A stretch of 29,847 nt of DNA, from positions 1 through 29,847 of the forward strand of contig DYEF01000092.1 in assembly GCA_020725805.1 (NCBI GenBank), read 5' to 3'. Origin of the DNA: Bdellovibrio sp. (GTDB taxonomy: Bacteria; Myxococcota; SpSt-1050). The notes under the pieces were generated by a model that did no database searches, was not told where the DNA came from, and was given only the letters and a program-made list of their open reading frames with translations. Each line of letters opens with the position of its first letter. Position 1 is the stretch's first letter. Made by a program: the position numbers and the translations under genes. Shown in pieces: positions 9,927 to 22,937 of this stretch.

Positions 9927-12233
9927 TCAGACTTTTCTCATTATTGATTTAATAAAACCTGTATCGCCTGTCTTGATACCGGAGGCATTTGCCTCATCTG
10001 TATCGATGTGCATTGCCAGTCTGAAGTTCTTATCTACCCTTACGAGTACTTCGTCGAATGTAATTCCTCTCTCACCCTCAACCATTACCTGTACAAGGTC
10101 CTTGTCCTTGATTCCGAATCTTAAAGCGTCTTCGAATGACATATGGATATGTCTCAGTGCCAGAATAACGCCCTTTTCTATTGTTATCTTTCCATTTGGC
10201 CCTTCGATTGTGAGTCCGGGTGTACCTTCGATATCTCCCGATGCCCTGATGGGGGCCTGAATTCCGAGTCTGAACTCCTCTGTCATTGCAATCTCAACCT
10301 GTGTTTTATCCCTCTCAGGACCCAGAATCCTTACATTGTCTATTCTCCCCTTTGGTCCTATCAGGTTTACCTTCTCCTTACAGGCGTATTGCCCCGGTTG
10401 TGAGAGTTCCTTGTCAATGGTAAGTTTGTATCCCTCACCGAAGAGTTTATCCACATCCCCTCTCGAGAGATGTATGTGGTGTGCCGAGACCTCTACCGGA
10501 ATCGGTATTGGTTTGATTCTGCTTATTTCCTGAGAGATTTCATAATTTCTTAATGCCTCGAGACTCTCCCTTGCAATCATAAACTCCTCATCGGTCGGGA
10601 CAACAAGTACCTTTACCCTTGAGTTGCTTGAGGTTATGTCGCATATCTGTTTGAAGCCGTTTGCACTCCTGTTCAGGTCTTCGTCGATTTCAATACCCAT
10701 AAATTCCAGACCCTGTAGGGATAGATTCCTTACGAGTGCAGAGCCCTGTCCTATGCCTCCCGTGAAGATTATAAGGTCCACTCCGCCCATTGCGGCGATA
10801 TAGGAACCTATATACTTTCTGATGCGGTAAGCAAATGACTTAATGGCTATCAGTGCGCGGTAGTCCGACTGATTTGCGGCATTCTCGATTTCCCTCATAT
10901 CGTTTGATATACCCGAGATACCTCTCAGTCCCGAAAATTTGTTGATGACCTTATCCAGCTGGTTGTAGTCCATATTTTCATTCCGCATTATGTGAATGAG
11001 CACTCCCGGGTCGATGTCACCGCATCTCGTACCCATAATCAGACCTTCTGCCGGTGTAAATCCCATACTCGTATCCACCGACCTGCCGTGGTCGATTGCA
11101 CAGACAGAACAGCCGTTCCCGAGATGACAGGCAATTATCGAGAGAGAGGAGTATCTCCGTTTCAGGAATTCGGCAGCCTTAAGGGAGACATAGGCGTGAG
11201 ATGTCCCGTGAAAGCCGTATCTCCTTATCTTTTTCTGTGAATAGTATTCGTACGGCAATGCATACAGGAAAGCATAGGGAGGCATTGTCTGATGAAAAGC
11301 CGTATCGAAGACCGCTATATGGACGGCCTTTCTGAAGAGTTGTCTTGATTCCCGTATGCCGGTCAGATTTACGGGGTTATGCAGCGGGGCATAGAGATTT
11401 GCCTTCTCTATCTCCTTCTCTACTTCCTCTGTAATGACGGTAGGGGCGTTGTATTTTTCGCCTCCGTGTACTACCCTGTGTCCGACAATATCTATCTCGT
11501 CAGGATTCCTGATTATCCTGAATTTTTCGGAGGTAAGGATTCTGATGACGTCCAGAAATGCCTCTTTGTGGTCGGATGCGGATATAATATGCTTCTCTTC
11601 CTGTGAGTTGTAACTGAATTTATGGACTGTCTGGTTTTCACCTATTCTCTCGACAATCCCCTTGAAGGGCTCATCCGGTCTGTAAGTGTCATAGTATGCA
11701 TACTTGAGGGAGGAGGAGCCGCAGTTGATGACGAGTATCTGTTTTCTCTTCTCCGAATTCAGTGTAATATGGCCGTCCTTATAACTTCCGGTCTCCTGAG
11801 ATGCCTTTGAAATCTCCGAGACTCTCTTCATCATAAGTTTCGACAGGTATGCTATTGCCGAGGGTTCTGTCATAAGAGCCTTTGTGAACATACTCTGCGG
11901 GATGAGCAGAATTTCGGAATGTGTGCTGCCTACCACGTTTGCAACCGTCTTCTCATTGGTCATCAGGGCAATCTCTCCGAAAATTTCGTACTCCCTGAGG
12001 CTGCCGATTATTTTTCTGCTCCCGTCGTTTTCCACTCTTATGATATTTACACCGCCCGAGAGAATAATACCGAGGAATCTCCCTTTTTCCTCCTCCTCGA
12101 TTACGGCCTCATTCTCCTCGACAGTGACGAGTTTTGAGCCGTCGATGATAATCCCTATTTTCTCTTCCGAAAATCCCTTAAAGAGTTCGACCTTTTCACT
12201 CAGGATTGAAATGACAGACTCTCTTGAAAGCAT
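9927..12233 (-). CDS. Fusion of cyclic-nucleotide-binding-like domain, acetate kinase and PduL-type phosphotransacylase
   Basis: 768 residues in one uninterrupted frame. Residues about 17-135: CRP/cNMP-binding fold, with FGEIALM at 85-91 as the phosphate-binding cassette, but Thr96 where the usual Arg sits. Residues about 165-565: complete acetate kinase with NCGSSSLK (170-177), GHRVVHGG (Arg253), DTAFHQTMP (Asp310), YGFHGTSH (His342), HLGNGCS, GTRCGDIDPG (Arg403), FTGGIGQGS and a C-terminal TDEEFMIARE (Glu549/550). Residues about 576-768: PduL with HHIHLS (585-590), CKEKVNLIGPKG, GIQAPIRASGD, RHIHMS (694-699) and HIDTDEANA (His742), covering the metal-ligand motifs. Predicted chemistry: acetyl-CoA plus phosphate to acetyl phosphate, then to acetate with ATP formed (reversible); propionyl substrates are possible. 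No signal peptide, so cytosolic. GAGGAGG (12241-12247) precedes ATG 12233. It ends 4 bases from the convergent kinase gene. Confidence 0.9.
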   Translation of the reverse strand: MLSRESVISILSEKVELFKGFSEEKIGIIIDGSKLVTVEENEAVIEEEEKGRFLGIILSGGVNIIRVENDGSRKIIGSLREYEIFGEIALMTNEKTVANVVGSTHSEILLIPQSMFTKALMTEPSAIAYLSKLMMKRVSEISKASQETGSYKDGHITLNSEKRKQILVINCGSSSLKYAYYDTYRPDEPFKGIVERIGENQTVHKFSYNSQEEKHIISASDHKEAFLDVIRILTSEKFRIIRNPDEIDIVGHRVVHGGEKYNAPTVITEEVEKEIEKANLYAPLHNPVNLTGIRESRQLFRKAVHIAVFDTAFHQTMPPYAFLYALPYEYYSQKKIRRYGFHGTSHAYVSLKAAEFLKRRYSSLSIIACHLGNGCSVCAIDHGRSVDTSMGFTPAEGLIMGTRCGDIDPGVLIHIMRNENMDYNQLDKVINKFSGLRGISGISNDMREIENAANQSDYRALIAIKSFAYRIRKYIGSYIAAMGGVDLIIFTGGIGQGSALVRNLSLQGLEFMGIEIDEDLNRSANGFKQICDITSSNSRVKVLVVPTDEEFMIARESLEALRNYEISQEISRIKPIPIPVEVSAHHIHLSRGDVDKLFGEGYKLTIDKELSQPGQYACKEKVNLIGPKGRIDNVRILGPERDKTQVEIAMTEEFRLGIQAPIRASGDIEGTPGLTIEGPNGKITIEKGVILALRHIHMSFEDALRFGIKDKDLVQVMVEGERGITFDEVLVRVDKNFRLAMHIDTDEANASGIKTGDTGFIKSIMRKV

Positions 12234-12254
12234 ATGTGTGCCTCCTCAAAAGAT

Positions 12255-12499: not shown

Positions 12500-12970
12500 A
12501 TGTTCGAACTTCTTACATTCTCCTGCCTTGTTGTCATAGGGACTATTGCCTCGATAACGGATTTCAGGGAAAGGAAGATATATAATTCGGTTACATATCC
12601 TTCCATCCTTCTGGGTTTTATACTCTGGTCGGTCAATTCAGGTGTGGATGGTTTCATTATGAGTGTTATCGGATTCGGTATAGCATTCGGAATCTATCTG
12701 ATAATATTCTTTCTGGGCGGATTTGGGGCAGGTGATGTGAAATTTGCTGCAGCTATAGGGGCAATTATGGGGTATCCGTCGGTTATCAGCTGGATTGTGA
12801 TATCAGCTATAGTCGGCGGAATCTTTGCACTTATGCTTCTCGTAAGGTTCAGACTCAAGAAGGCCGAAAGATTTCAGATGAAAGAGAGTATATTTATACC
12901 GTTCGGACCTCCTATGGCACTTGCAGTTCTGATTACATACGGATATAATTATCTGATGCCGGGTATGTGA
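12500..12970 (+). CDS. A24-family prepilin peptidase (short, TadV/CpaA-like)
   Basis: 156 residues, almost all membrane-spanning (about five to six segments). The two aspartates of the A24 peptidases are visible: Asp21 in SITDFRERKIYN and Asp79 in GFGAGDVKF (GxGD). These enzymes cut the leader of type IV pilin-like proteins at the cytoplasmic face of the inner membrane. The N-methyltransferase domain of PilD is absent, as in TadV/CpaA forms. No pilin, ATPase or secretin gene lies in the window. Its TGA overlaps the ATG of the next gene (TGATG at 12968-12972), so translation is probably coupled to the Cys-rich lipoprotein. Confidence 0.82.
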   Translation: MFELLTFSCLVVIGTIASITDFRERKIYNSVTYPSILLGFILWSVNSGVDGFIMSVIGFGIAFGIYLIIFFLGGFGAGDVKFAAAIGAIMGYPSVISWIVISAIVGGIFALMLLVRFRLKKAERFQMKESIFIPFGPPMALAVLITYGYNYLMPGM

Positions 12971-15147
12971 TGAGAAATATCGTTTTAATAATCGGCCTTT
13001 ATTTTCTTTTATCCTGCCAGTCCTGTGAGAATGAATTTACCTGTGAAAGGTCATCCTGTATGCCCGGTAATTGTCTCTACAACGGCCAGTGCGTTCAGGT
13101 GGTTGGCAATGTCTGCACCCAGAACAGCTCCTGTATTTCGGGTATCTGTATCAGGGGCGCCGGTAAGGATTACGGATACTGTACCTATAACTGTGTTCAG
13201 GATACGGATTGTCCGGATAAATACAGTTGTCTCGGAAATCCGAGAATGTGTGTCTTTACCGGAGACATTAACGGTTGCAGTACAGATGCGGATTGCGGAG
13301 TCTGCGGACACTGTGTAAACGACAGATGTTCTAAGGAATACGGATGCCCGTATTCACTCTATATGTGCAATACTGTTGTCGATTGTCCGTATTGTATGAA
13401 TTGTGTAAGCGGTCTCTGTGTACCCATAGAAGGGTGTACCGGTTCGATGTGCCTTAACAATGAAGACTGTGGCGGCTGTGCCGTTTGTGTCAATGGTCTT
13501 TGTAAAAATCCGGAGGGATGTAAATATCCGCCATGTAATGCCGATACAGACTGTCCCTACGGATTCTTCTGTAACCAGAAGACAGGTGAATGCAGAAAGA
13601 AGGGGATGTCCGAAATAGGAAAGTCCTGTATGCCTGATGCTGGCATGGATATAACCGATGCAGAGGGAGACCTGAGTTGCGAGAGCGGTCTCTGTCTGTA
13701 TGATGACGGAAGTTTCTACTGCTCTGTGGACTGCACACAGGACAGTTCCCTCTGCCCGTATAATTACACCTGTTCCATATACAGCGGGGGAATGAGAGTC
13801 TGTAAGAAAAAGAAATCGGTATATACCGGCATTGCCTGCCTAAGAGATTCGGACTGTAATGCCAGCAAACACGAGGCCTGCATATATGTGGCAGATTCGC
13901 AGAGCAGTGCAGGGGCATATTGCAGTCAGCCGTTTACGGACGGATTCGGTCTGGGTTATACCTGCGAGCAGCACGGAGATTGTCAGACCAATCTATGTCC
14001 GGACAACAGGATATGCAGTAAGCCCTGCGGGAGGGACAAGGACTGTCCGCGCGGCTATGTCTGTGAGAATCTCAAATTTGATATCAACGGGGCGAAGGTC
14101 ACACTGAAAGGGTGTATAGCCAGGTATTTTACTTACGGAAGAATCGGTGATATCTGTAATGAAAATATCCTCTGCAGGGAGGGTCTGTTCTGTCCGAAGG
14201 ATGATATAAATCTTCCGTCACCTGTCTGCACAAAGGAGTGTCTCTCCTCCGATGATTGTATCGACAATTATGAATGCCGTCCTGATGACCTGTATTCAAC
14301 CGGCAAATCGCTATGTCTGCCGGTGATGCAGGTAAGGGACTGTGTCTCGGATTCTGAATGTAAAGACAATAAGGTATGTTCTGTCTTTGTCGGTGAGAAT
14401 AAGGAATACAGTATATCCTGTACAGATGCACTGGAGGGTAGAGACCCGCTTATGAGTTGTTCCTTTACTACGGGATATCCGGGATGCCGCAATAATATGT
14501 GTACATATTACAATTACTGTGACCGTTTGTGTAACTCATTATCGGATTGCGGAAGTGATACTCTGAGGTGTGACTATTCTCCTCTGAAACTTGCCGATTC
14601 CTCTCTTAGATTTACTCTGGCCTGCAGGCTCAGAAACGGTTCACTCAGGAGTTGTACTACCGATAAGGACTGTATCCTGCCGGAAATCTGCCGCAGATTT
14701 ATTTCGTTTGACGGAATGTATGAAAAGAACGCCTGTATGCTGCCTGTCCCGGGAGGTCAGTCTTTCGGCTCGAGTTGTAATCCGCAGACAGTCGAGCCCA
14801 AGTGTGCAAGTGACCTCTGCAGTGATGACGGTATATGTACCAGATTCTGTCTCTCGGATTCTGACTGTGGGGAGTCTATGAAATGCGATGTCTCGCACGC
14901 AAGGCTCTCAAGCGGGAGCGAACTCTATTTTATGGGTTGCAGGCCGGACAAGAAGCGCGGTCAGCTCGGAGACCCCTGTCCGTCCGGCTGGCTGGACTGT
15001 GAATATAATCTGTTCTGTTACAATGACGGAGAACAGTCCTTCTGTACCAAATCCTGCGATAAGGATAATCCTCTGGACTGTGCACCTCCCGGAAACATCT
15101 GCACGGAAATCAATCAGAATTATATCTGTGTCCCTGTGAGTAAATAA
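12970..15147 (+). CDS. Large Cys-rich lipoprotein with repeated CxxDxDC modules
   Basis: 725 residues from ATG 12970 (a GTG at 12967 would add one residue). The signal MRNIVLIIGLYFLLSC gives a lipobox L-L-S-C with Cys16. The rest is built from more than a dozen short modules, each with a CxxDxDC-like start (CSTDADC, CNADTDC, CLRDSDC, CGRDKDC, CTTDKDC, CLSDSDC and others) and a trailing Gly-x-Cys pattern. Such arrays, probably disulfide-bonded, are common in myxobacterial surface lipoproteins; ligands are unknown. There is no catalytic motif. Its TAA overlaps the ATG of the following gene by one base (15147). Coupling with the prepilin peptidase and beta-helix genes suggests a shared envelope role. 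Confidence 0.8.
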   Translation: MRNIVLIIGLYFLLSCQSCENEFTCERSSCMPGNCLYNGQCVQVVGNVCTQNSSCISGICIRGAGKDYGYCTYNCVQDTDCPDKYSCLGNPRMCVFTGDINGCSTDADCGVCGHCVNDRCSKEYGCPYSLYMCNTVVDCPYCMNCVSGLCVPIEGCTGSMCLNNEDCGGCAVCVNGLCKNPEGCKYPPCNADTDCPYGFFCNQKTGECRKKGMSEIGKSCMPDAGMDITDAEGDLSCESGLCLYDDGSFYCSVDCTQDSSLCPYNYTCSIYSGGMRVCKKKKSVYTGIACLRDSDCNASKHEACIYVADSQSSAGAYCSQPFTDGFGLGYTCEQHGDCQTNLCPDNRICSKPCGRDKDCPRGYVCENLKFDINGAKVTLKGCIARYFTYGRIGDICNENILCREGLFCPKDDINLPSPVCTKECLSSDDCIDNYECRPDDLYSTGKSLCLPVMQVRDCVSDSECKDNKVCSVFVGENKEYSISCTDALEGRDPLMSCSFTTGYPGCRNNMCTYYNYCDRLCNSLSDCGSDTLRCDYSPLKLADSSLRFTLACRLRNGSLRSCTTDKDCILPEICRRFISFDGMYEKNACMLPVPGGQSFGSSCNPQTVEPKCASDLCSDDGICTRFCLSDSDCGESMKCDVSHARLSSGSELYFMGCRPDKKRGQLGDPCPSGWLDCEYNLFCYNDGEQSFCTKSCDKDNPLDCAPPGNICTEINQNYICVPVSK

Positions 15148-20627: not shown

Positions 20628-22937
20628 ATGAAAAATCTTCTTTTTTATTTATGTCTGTTCTTATCTGTCGTTTATTATTCCTGTTCGGATGAAAAGAATA
20701 ATACTGTTGCTGATACAGGTACAGATGATGTCACTGTTATTCAGGATACAGGGCCTGAGCAGGTAGCTGATACGGGTGTTGAAGAGAAACTCATTGATTA
20801 TGTCAATGTCTTCACCGGCACCGGTGGTGTAGGATTTGGTGTGGGGTCTATGATTCCGGGTGCAACAGCACCGTTTTCCATGATAAAACTCTCTCCGGAT
20901 ACCGCAATGTCGAACGGTGCAGTACCGTTTTATCACTGTGCAGGTTATTATTATGAAGATGAGTACATTGTGGGCTTCTCTCACAATCATCTGCCGGGGG
21001 TCGGTGTTGCGGATCAGGGGAATATACTGTTTATGCCGGTGACTTCCTTCTCGGATGAGATGATAAACTGGACGAAATACCGTTCACCTCTCGACCATTC
21101 TCTCGAAAAGGCCTCTCCGGGTTATTACTCCGTACTTCTTCCGGACAGAGATGTGCTTGCGGAATTTACAGTCAGGAGCAGGTCCGGAATTCACAGATAT
21201 ACATTTAAGAACAGGGAGTCCCCGAATGTACTCCTTGTTGACCTCGATGCCGCTGCGGCTTTCGGAAAGGTAGAGGATGAGGAGATTGTAATAGATACAG
21301 AGAAGAATGTCTTTTACGGGTCAGCAAAGACGATAGGAGATTTTGCCGACAGATATGGTGGTCTTAAGATATACTTTTATGCAGTACCCGACAGAAAGAT
21401 AAAGGATTTCAGACTTTACAAGGACCTGAAATATTCGGAGGGCAATTCCCTGAGCGGAGATAATATCAGGGCACTTCTCCATTTCGAAGGGAGCGGGATT
21501 CTCAATGTAAGGGTAGGTATATCCTATGTGGATATCGAGGGTGCAGAAAAGAATCTTATAAGTGAAATTCCAGACTTTGGTTTCGAAAAGTACAGGTCGG
21601 ATACCGAAAAAGACTGGGAGTCTATGCTCTCTCTTGTTAGAGTAAAGAGCGAGAATAAGCGGGATAAGAGGATTTTCTATACGGCTATGTATCACCTCTT
21701 TCAGATGCCTACATTGTTTACAGATTCAGACAGAAGGTACAGGGGGTTTGACAATCAGATTCATACAGCAGAGAATTTCATTTACTATACCGATTTTTCA
21801 CTCTGGGATACGTACAGGACGTTTCATCCCCTGATATCTCTCATTCTTCCGGCCATTCAGAGGGATTTTAATATCTCTCTTCTGAAGATGTATGAGCAGG
21901 GCGGATATCTCCCCAGATGGCCGATGGGGACAGGAGAGTCAGGTTCGATGGTCGGAGAGAGTGCAAATATTATGTTTGCAGACTCTGTTATGAGAGGAGT
22001 TGTCGACTGGGATATAGAAAAATCCTTTGAAGCAATGCTAAAGACAGCAGATAAACCAAAGGACCCGAACTCATATTACGGAGGGAGGGACGGGATAGAG
22101 GAATATGTGAGTCTTGGGTATGTGCCGGCAGATAAATATAGCGGTTCTGTCTCGAAGACTCAGGAATATACGTATGATGATTACGCAATCGCCTATATCG
22201 CAGATTATCTGGGTAAAAAAGAGGATTACGGGAGATTTCTCGAAAGGGCATCCTATTATAAAAATCTTTTTAGCAATGAACAGAAGTTCTTCATAGGGAG
22301 AAATTCGGACGGGACCTTTATTGATAATTTTATTCCTACCTCTCATTCACAGTATTATGTGGAAGGGAACGGCTGGCAATACAGGTTCTTTATCCCTTAC
22401 GACTCTTCGGGGCTGGCAGACCTTTTCGGTGGCAGGGAGAATCTCATTGCTGCACTCGATGAACTCTTTACAAAGTCAGAAGAGGAGTATAAATCAGAGC
22501 CGACAACATTACTCCCCCGCAAATACTACTGGCACAGCAACGAACCCTGTATTCTCATACCGTTTATGTATTGTGACCTTAAGGACTGTAACAGTTCAAA
22601 TAGGTGGAACAGGTGGATATTCAAGGTCTCATATAAGGATTCTCCCGACGGACTTCCGGGTAATGATGACGGCGGAACAATGTCTGCGTGGTATATAATG
22701 AGTTCCCTTGGAATAATGATGCTCCCTGTCAAGGATTATTATCTGATAGGTGCCCCGCTCTTTGCAGAGAGTGAGATAAAGTTCAATAATACAAAACTTC
22801 TGGTCAGAACAGCTGGTTATTCGAGAGATAAGTATAAGGTAAAGAGAGTTCTTTTTAATGGTAAAGAGGTCAGTGATTTCAGGATAAATCACAGCGAACT
22901 GATAAAAGGCGGGGAGATTAAGGTTGAGTTTGAATAG
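20628..22937 (+). CDS. GH92-family alpha-mannosidase-like lipoprotein
   Basis: 769 residues. Signal with Cys19 (Y-Y-S-C; Tyr at -3 is an imperfect lipobox) followed by an Asp/Thr-rich linker to about residue 55. VNVFTGTGGVGFG...MIPGATAPFSMIKLSPDT and GFSHNHLPGVGVADQGNILFMPV are the GH92 N-terminal signatures. Later come LWDTYRTFHPL, YVEGNGWQYRF (Glu579, likely general acid) and GNDDGGTMSAWYIMSSLG (Asp680/Asp681, base candidates). GH92 enzymes are calcium-dependent exo-alpha-mannosidases acting on N-glycans and mannans. The length fits the family. NEPCILIPFMYC lacks the His usually seen after NEP, and GGT replaces the usual CGQ or similar before MSAWY, so specificity may differ. Last gene of the 17712 unit. 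Confidence 0.88.
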   Translation: MKNLLFYLCLFLSVVYYSCSDEKNNTVADTGTDDVTVIQDTGPEQVADTGVEEKLIDYVNVFTGTGGVGFGVGSMIPGATAPFSMIKLSPDTAMSNGAVPFYHCAGYYYEDEYIVGFSHNHLPGVGVADQGNILFMPVTSFSDEMINWTKYRSPLDHSLEKASPGYYSVLLPDRDVLAEFTVRSRSGIHRYTFKNRESPNVLLVDLDAAAAFGKVEDEEIVIDTEKNVFYGSAKTIGDFADRYGGLKIYFYAVPDRKIKDFRLYKDLKYSEGNSLSGDNIRALLHFEGSGILNVRVGISYVDIEGAEKNLISEIPDFGFEKYRSDTEKDWESMLSLVRVKSENKRDKRIFYTAMYHLFQMPTLFTDSDRRYRGFDNQIHTAENFIYYTDFSLWDTYRTFHPLISLILPAIQRDFNISLLKMYEQGGYLPRWPMGTGESGSMVGESANIMFADSVMRGVVDWDIEKSFEAMLKTADKPKDPNSYYGGRDGIEEYVSLGYVPADKYSGSVSKTQEYTYDDYAIAYIADYLGKKEDYGRFLERASYYKNLFSNEQKFFIGRNSDGTFIDNFIPTSHSQYYVEGNGWQYRFFIPYDSSGLADLFGGRENLIAALDELFTKSEEEYKSEPTTLLPRKYYWHSNEPCILIPFMYCDLKDCNSSNRWNRWIFKVSYKDSPDGLPGNDDGGTMSAWYIMSSLGIMMLPVKDYYLIGAPLFAESEIKFNNTKLLVRTAGYSRDKYKVKRVLFNGKEVSDFRINHSELIKGGEIKVEFE

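Follow-up and report, generated by a model that had tools for sequence, protein, structure and literature searches.

Locus and parts of the encoded protein

The window (the whole stretch of DNA analysed, 29,847 nucleotides) carries on its minus strand, at 9927..12233, a gene for a 768-aa protein that joins a cNMP-binding-type (CNB) domain, an acetate kinase (AckA) and a PduL-type phosphotransacylase (PTAC) in this order. The gene is a single unbroken ATG-to-stop frame with its ATG at 12233, directly 5' of which a Shine-Dalgarno-like GAGGAGG can be read from the sequence (12237..12247, minus strand); the plus strand across the same interval holds 18 stops. A sister genome (G001) encodes a counterpart with the same parts, also of 768 aa and 76% identical, and a comparison of the two genes yielded saturated synonymous sites (pS about 0.8–0.9) together with low pN values (0.20 for the CNB, 0.12 for the AckA and 0.11 for the PTAC part), which indicates purifying selection on all three parts. 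An earlier note on this DNA had described three complete parts in one frame, and this description is confirmed by the frame itself, by profile matches and by the G001 homologue, with the strand, not given in that note, corrected to minus. A stop or frameshift splitting the gene was looked for and none was found, the frame being intact in the window and conserved in G001 as well as in unrelated genomes.

The N-terminal CNB domain (residues 1–145; 11799..12233, minus strand) is supported by Pfam profile, structure match and column counts, the cNMP_binding profile (PF00027) covering residues 36–122 (E 2.4e-16, 59.9 bits vs. a cut-off of 27.5). It is followed by a flexible linker (residues 146–163; 11745..11798, minus strand) of low model confidence (pLDDT 50–65) and poor conservation (44% to the sister species). 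The acetate kinase (residues 164–562; 10548..11744, minus strand) matches Acetate_kinase (PF00871) over residues 166–555 (E 3.8e-145) and TIGR00016 over its whole length (residues 162–558, 488 bits vs. a cut-off of 293). Its alignment to the structure 1g99 places N7, R91, H123, D148, H180, N211, R241 and E384 of M. thermophila AckA, in order, at N170, R253, H285, D310, H342, N373, R403 and E549 of the window protein, so that all of these catalytic residues, whose roles in the M. thermophila enzyme we take to be established enzymology, are present. The PduL-type part (residues 576–768; 9930..10508, minus strand) matches PTAC (PF06130) over residues 579–753 (E 3.1e-79, 265 bits vs. a cut-off of 25) and NF011652 (272.5 bits vs. 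a cut-off of 209); all three Pfam matches exceed their curated cut-offs. Alignment to 5cuo revealed all six zinc ligands (H586, H588, E647, H695, H697 and H742), the dizinc ligands given for rPduL being His48, His50, Glu109, His157, His159 and His204 (PMC4784909), and both halves of the PduL fold are present by profile and by structure match to 5cuo.

An AlphaFold2 model of the protein (mean pLDDT 91, pTM 0.81) matches solved acetate kinases with Z 54, R. palustris PduL (5cuo) with Z 29.8 and rmsd 1.0, and the CNB domains of PKG, PKA and CRP with Z up to 20.4 (best match 5bv6). At the counted columns, each AckA residue is retained in most or all of the CNB-bearing relatives, and only one relative with a readable PTAC part lacks the full set of PduL zinc ligands. 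Judged from the sequence, both catalytic parts are complete, and the earlier statement to this effect is borne out by profiles, catalytic residues and structure matches alike.

Within its own genome (G000), the window protein is the only PTAC protein and the only full AckA. The remaining kinase matches are of butyrate-kinase type, and the two PTA_PTB matches score best as phosphotransbutyrylase. One butyrate kinase is encoded on contig C88 in an apparent operon (G000:C88:36941-41485; L031:6942-11486) with genes for the alpha and a likely beta subunit of indolepyruvate ferredoxin oxidoreductase and for phosphotransbutyrylase (Ptb); this operon possibly leads from amino-acid-derived acyl-CoA to ATP. 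Another locus (G000:C44:4781-7171, minus strand; L044) encodes a 797-aa Buk-Ptb fusion with butyrate kinase at residues 105–436 and phosphate butyryltransferase at 487–787, after which comes a CoA-transferase/GNAT fusion gene (L044:2923-4764). Genes for POR_N (2-oxoacid:ferredoxin oxidoreductase) are also present and are consistent with an acetyl-CoA-fed fermentation. A search for microcompartment (BMC) shell proteins (PF00936) found none in G000 or G001 and none in 17 of the 19 three-part genomes tested (two have any), which argues that the three-part enzyme is not part of a microcompartment. The neighbours of the gene are likewise not conserved beyond near relatives, as fits a stand-alone unit, and the only context clues to function are a cyclase gene in Aminicenantes and a CNB-aspartase fusion in Verrucomicrobium (see below). 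Elsewhere in the window, a prepilin peptidase (12500-12970) lies next to a likely secreted, Cys-rich protein of 726 aa with many short Cys-rich modules (12967-15147, plus strand), and a Glycoside hydrolase family 92 protein is encoded at 20628-22937 (plus strand).

Distribution and origin of the family

A profile of the PTAC part was run against named genomes, and the open frame of each of the best 80 loci was checked. The CNB-AckA-PTAC order was found in at least 33 proteins, including that of the window, from about 11 bacterial phyla; most carriers are MAGs, so that single taxon assignments may be wrong, and one named strain and one chromosome-level record are included. Among these best 80 loci, the labels of the carriers comprise Deltaproteobacteria/Myxococcota, Spirochaetales, Brocadiia, Planctomycetales, Fischerbacteria, Verrucomicrobium, Akkermansiaceae, an uncultured proteobacterium, Anaerolineae, Aminicenantes, Syntrophaceae/Smithella, magnetotactic Nitrospirota and Elusimicrobia. 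In a further relative with the same order (G002), the gene runs off the end of a contig, and its continuation, which overlaps in sequence, begins another contig. In several of the three-part genomes, the three-part protein is the only AckA. On this comparative evidence, the three-part protein is a conserved family. Proteins of the two-part AckA-PTAC type are also common (Myxococcota, Bacteroidota, Gammaproteobacteria), whereas a search of viral contigs for relatives returned none.

Several variants accompany the family. Magnetobacterium casense (Nitrospirota) has a CNB-AckA copy without PduL (L179:2010-3734, minus strand), and some of the second "AckA" copies of Nitrospirota (L176, L177, L178) are divergent three-part paralogues, with lost zinc ligands in L177. 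Two long frames (1363 aa and 1059 aa, in G022 and G025) were considered as larger fusions and rejected, their N-terminal parts looking like spurious high-GC extensions; the true proteins look like two-part ones.

In a tree of the AckA part, the CNB-bearing proteins cluster together with six proteins of the two-part type, and the hypothesis that the CNB-bearing group arose once is not rejected (p-AU 0.45, with row L210 left out of the test for its abnormal branch, probably a wrong-frame translation). In one Myxococcota family, several proteins of the two-part type (L021, L029, L030) retain at the N-terminus the linker motif DPY of most CNB-bearing proteins, and another (L027) has DRY instead; the motif is absent from the other two-part groups. 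We read this remnant as a sign that the CNB domain was lost in these Myxococcota proteins after one gain. Such apparent losses suggest that control by the CNB is dispensable in some lineages. In the PTAC tree, the two-part proteins L019/L090 and L098 pair with stand-alone PduLs, suggesting separate AckA-PduL fusions, and one origin of all fusions is only weakly disfavoured (p-AU 0.07).

The CNB pocket and the proposed function

The reading that we favour, with a probability of roughly 0.6, is that the protein would serve as a self-contained, allosterically controlled bifunctional replacement for Pta-Ack, converting acetyl-CoA, phosphate and ADP to acetate, ATP and CoA. In this scheme, the C-terminal dizinc domain would turn acetyl-CoA (or propionyl-CoA) and phosphate into acyl phosphate and CoA, the central kinase would pass the phosphate of the acyl phosphate to ADP, yielding acetate and ATP, and the binding of a small ligand to the N-terminal CNB domain on its flexible linker would alter activity. 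The ligand, probably a product of a class III nucleotide cyclase or otherwise related to one, is possibly not cAMP bound in the usual way. Retention of the CNB domain under selection and across about 11 phyla was counted in favour of allosteric control.

The properties of the CNB pocket bear directly on this proposal. The cassette FGEIALMTNEKTVANV (residues 85–100) lacks the phosphate-binding Arg and has T96 in its place; at this position (R209 of PKA RI-alpha), none of the 34 family members has Arg, and most have Thr, Ala or Ser. A comparison set of 31 CNB domains from the same phylum, picked by similarity to the window CNB and not a random sample, has Arg in 18, chiefly in first or single CNBs. 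The earlier description of a cNMP-like sensor therefore holds for the CNB fold, as matched by structure, but not for the PKA-type phosphate-binding Arg, so that cAMP or cGMP should not be assumed as the ligand; indeed, the domain may have no affinity for cyclic nucleotides. The missing Arg could also mean that the CNB fold is a structural, dimerising or docking module of a constitutive Pta-Ack replacement, as would the fact that the second CNB of tandem proteins from the same phylum is likewise without Arg and that some relatives have dropped the domain altogether. This alternative, which we consider unlikely, is opposed by the strong conservation of the cassette region, including the Gly-Glu pair for ribose (G86 in 34/34 and E87 in 33/34), as well as by a cyclase gene that adjoins the three-part gene in four Aminicenantes.

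These cyclases are of the FHA-GAF-class III type (L057:2590-4347, L056:3-893, L193:6136-7815 and L195:309-2036) and are immediate neighbours of the three-part gene in 4 of 6 Aminicenantes contigs; two lie upstream and are read in its direction, and two lie downstream in convergent orientation. Chance adjacency is unlikely because these genomes have only 1–3 cyclases each, and the arrangement suggests a cyclic nucleotide or a related ligand; the species are related, however, and the association may have arisen once and been inherited. It was seen only in Aminicenantes and not in the window's own genome, the four cyclases of which all lie on contigs other than that of the three-part gene. A precedent for control of this kind is mycobacterial Pat, in which cAMP activates the enzyme through an N-terminal CNB (PMC5861322) and the structure of which (4avb) is among the matches of our model. 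In Verrucomicrobium sp. BvORR106, a CNB-aspartate ammonia-lyase fusion lies directly upstream of the CNB-AckA-PduL gene (L051:2415-4322, plus strand), two CNB-enzyme fusions being thus adjacent.

A doubtful alternative is that the domain is a sensor for a non-cyclic ligand, for example a nucleoside or nucleotide that reflects the energy state. A signal of this kind would be apt for an enzyme that makes ATP, and trypanosome PKA regulatory subunits in which this Arg has been lost bind purine nucleosides in place of cAMP (PMC10959531). The cyclase adjacency points instead to cyclic nucleotides, and the second trypanosome change is absent: position 89, two residues past the cassette Glu, is Ser or Ala in 34/34 (Ala89 in the window protein) and never the hallmark Glu (an Ala to Glu change), for which reason the trypanosome PKAR nucleoside-binding type was rejected. 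Operation mainly in reverse, from acetate to acetyl-CoA, is improbable; both reactions are reversible (established enzymology; PMC4784909), but the POR_N oxidoreductases and the several acyl kinase/phosphotransacylase pairs of the genome suggest, as a plausibility argument, ATP formation fed by acyl-CoA. An artificial fusion through assembly or missed stops has a negligible probability: the source is a draft assembly of 115 contigs, but the same 768-aa protein in G001 and the 31 other same-order proteins, including those of the named strain BvORR106 and the chromosome-level record CP070750, keep the order in one frame.

Returning to the allosterically controlled Pta-Ack replacement, Pta-Ack acetate formation is among the commonest ATP-forming routes in anaerobes, and a form of this route in which a CNB domain exerts direct allosteric control has, to our knowledge, not been described. 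A broader proposal, that a widespread ligand-gated bifunctional family lets a nucleotide second messenger switch ATP formation from acetyl-CoA to acetate through an Arg-less CNB pocket, is tentative, at somewhat under even odds; such a pocket would possibly bind a ligand new to CNB domains, or bind its ligand in a new way. If true, a second-messenger switch would act on substrate-level phosphorylation itself, and a widespread, hitherto undescribed variant of a basic step in energy conservation might be turned on and off by a small molecule, in a many-phylum family that is compatible with a single origin and has syntrophs (Smithella, Syntrophaceae) as well as magnetotactic Nitrospirota among its members. 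The protein would also offer a compact enzyme for cell-free regeneration of ATP or acetyl-CoA and a model for studying CNB domains that lack the arginine for the cyclic phosphate.

Comparison with known systems

The placement of both steps on one chain and the possible channelling between them, raised in the earlier note, were anticipated by Erbilgin et al. (2016), who noted PduL-Ack fusions and proposed channelling of the acyl phosphate (PMC4784909). These fusions resemble the window protein in having AckA followed by PduL on one chain without an encapsulation peptide; the window protein adds an N-terminal CNB domain, which the portion of that article consulted does not mention. The suggestion that the three-part arrangement is undescribed thus stands in part: the AckA-PduL fusion is known, and only the CNB-bearing form seems undescribed, no account of it having been found in open-licence literature (weak evidence; domain databases may also list the architecture uncommented).

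Compared with stand-alone acetate kinases (TIGR00016; 1g99, 2iir), the window kinase has the same whole fold and catalytic residues at 45–48% identity and differs in being fused at both ends. With PduL phosphotransacylase (PF06130; 5cuo) the C-terminal part of the window protein shares all six zinc ligands over 188 aligned residues (Z 29.8, 48% identity), whereas its genome is without microcompartment shell genes and its first RHxH motif is HHxH. The Buk-Ptb fusion of the same genome (G000:C44:4781-7171, minus strand) is an analogous chain of acyl kinase and then phosphotransacylase, in which a non-homologous transacylase, Ptb (PF01515), takes the place of PduL and the CNB domain is lacking. 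Mycobacterial Pat/KAT (Rv0998), in contrast to the window protein, carries an acetyltransferase as its enzyme part, and the window CNB is without the canonical Arg; nevertheless, both proteins have an N-terminal CNB fused to a metabolic enzyme, and for Pat/KAT control by cAMP has been shown.
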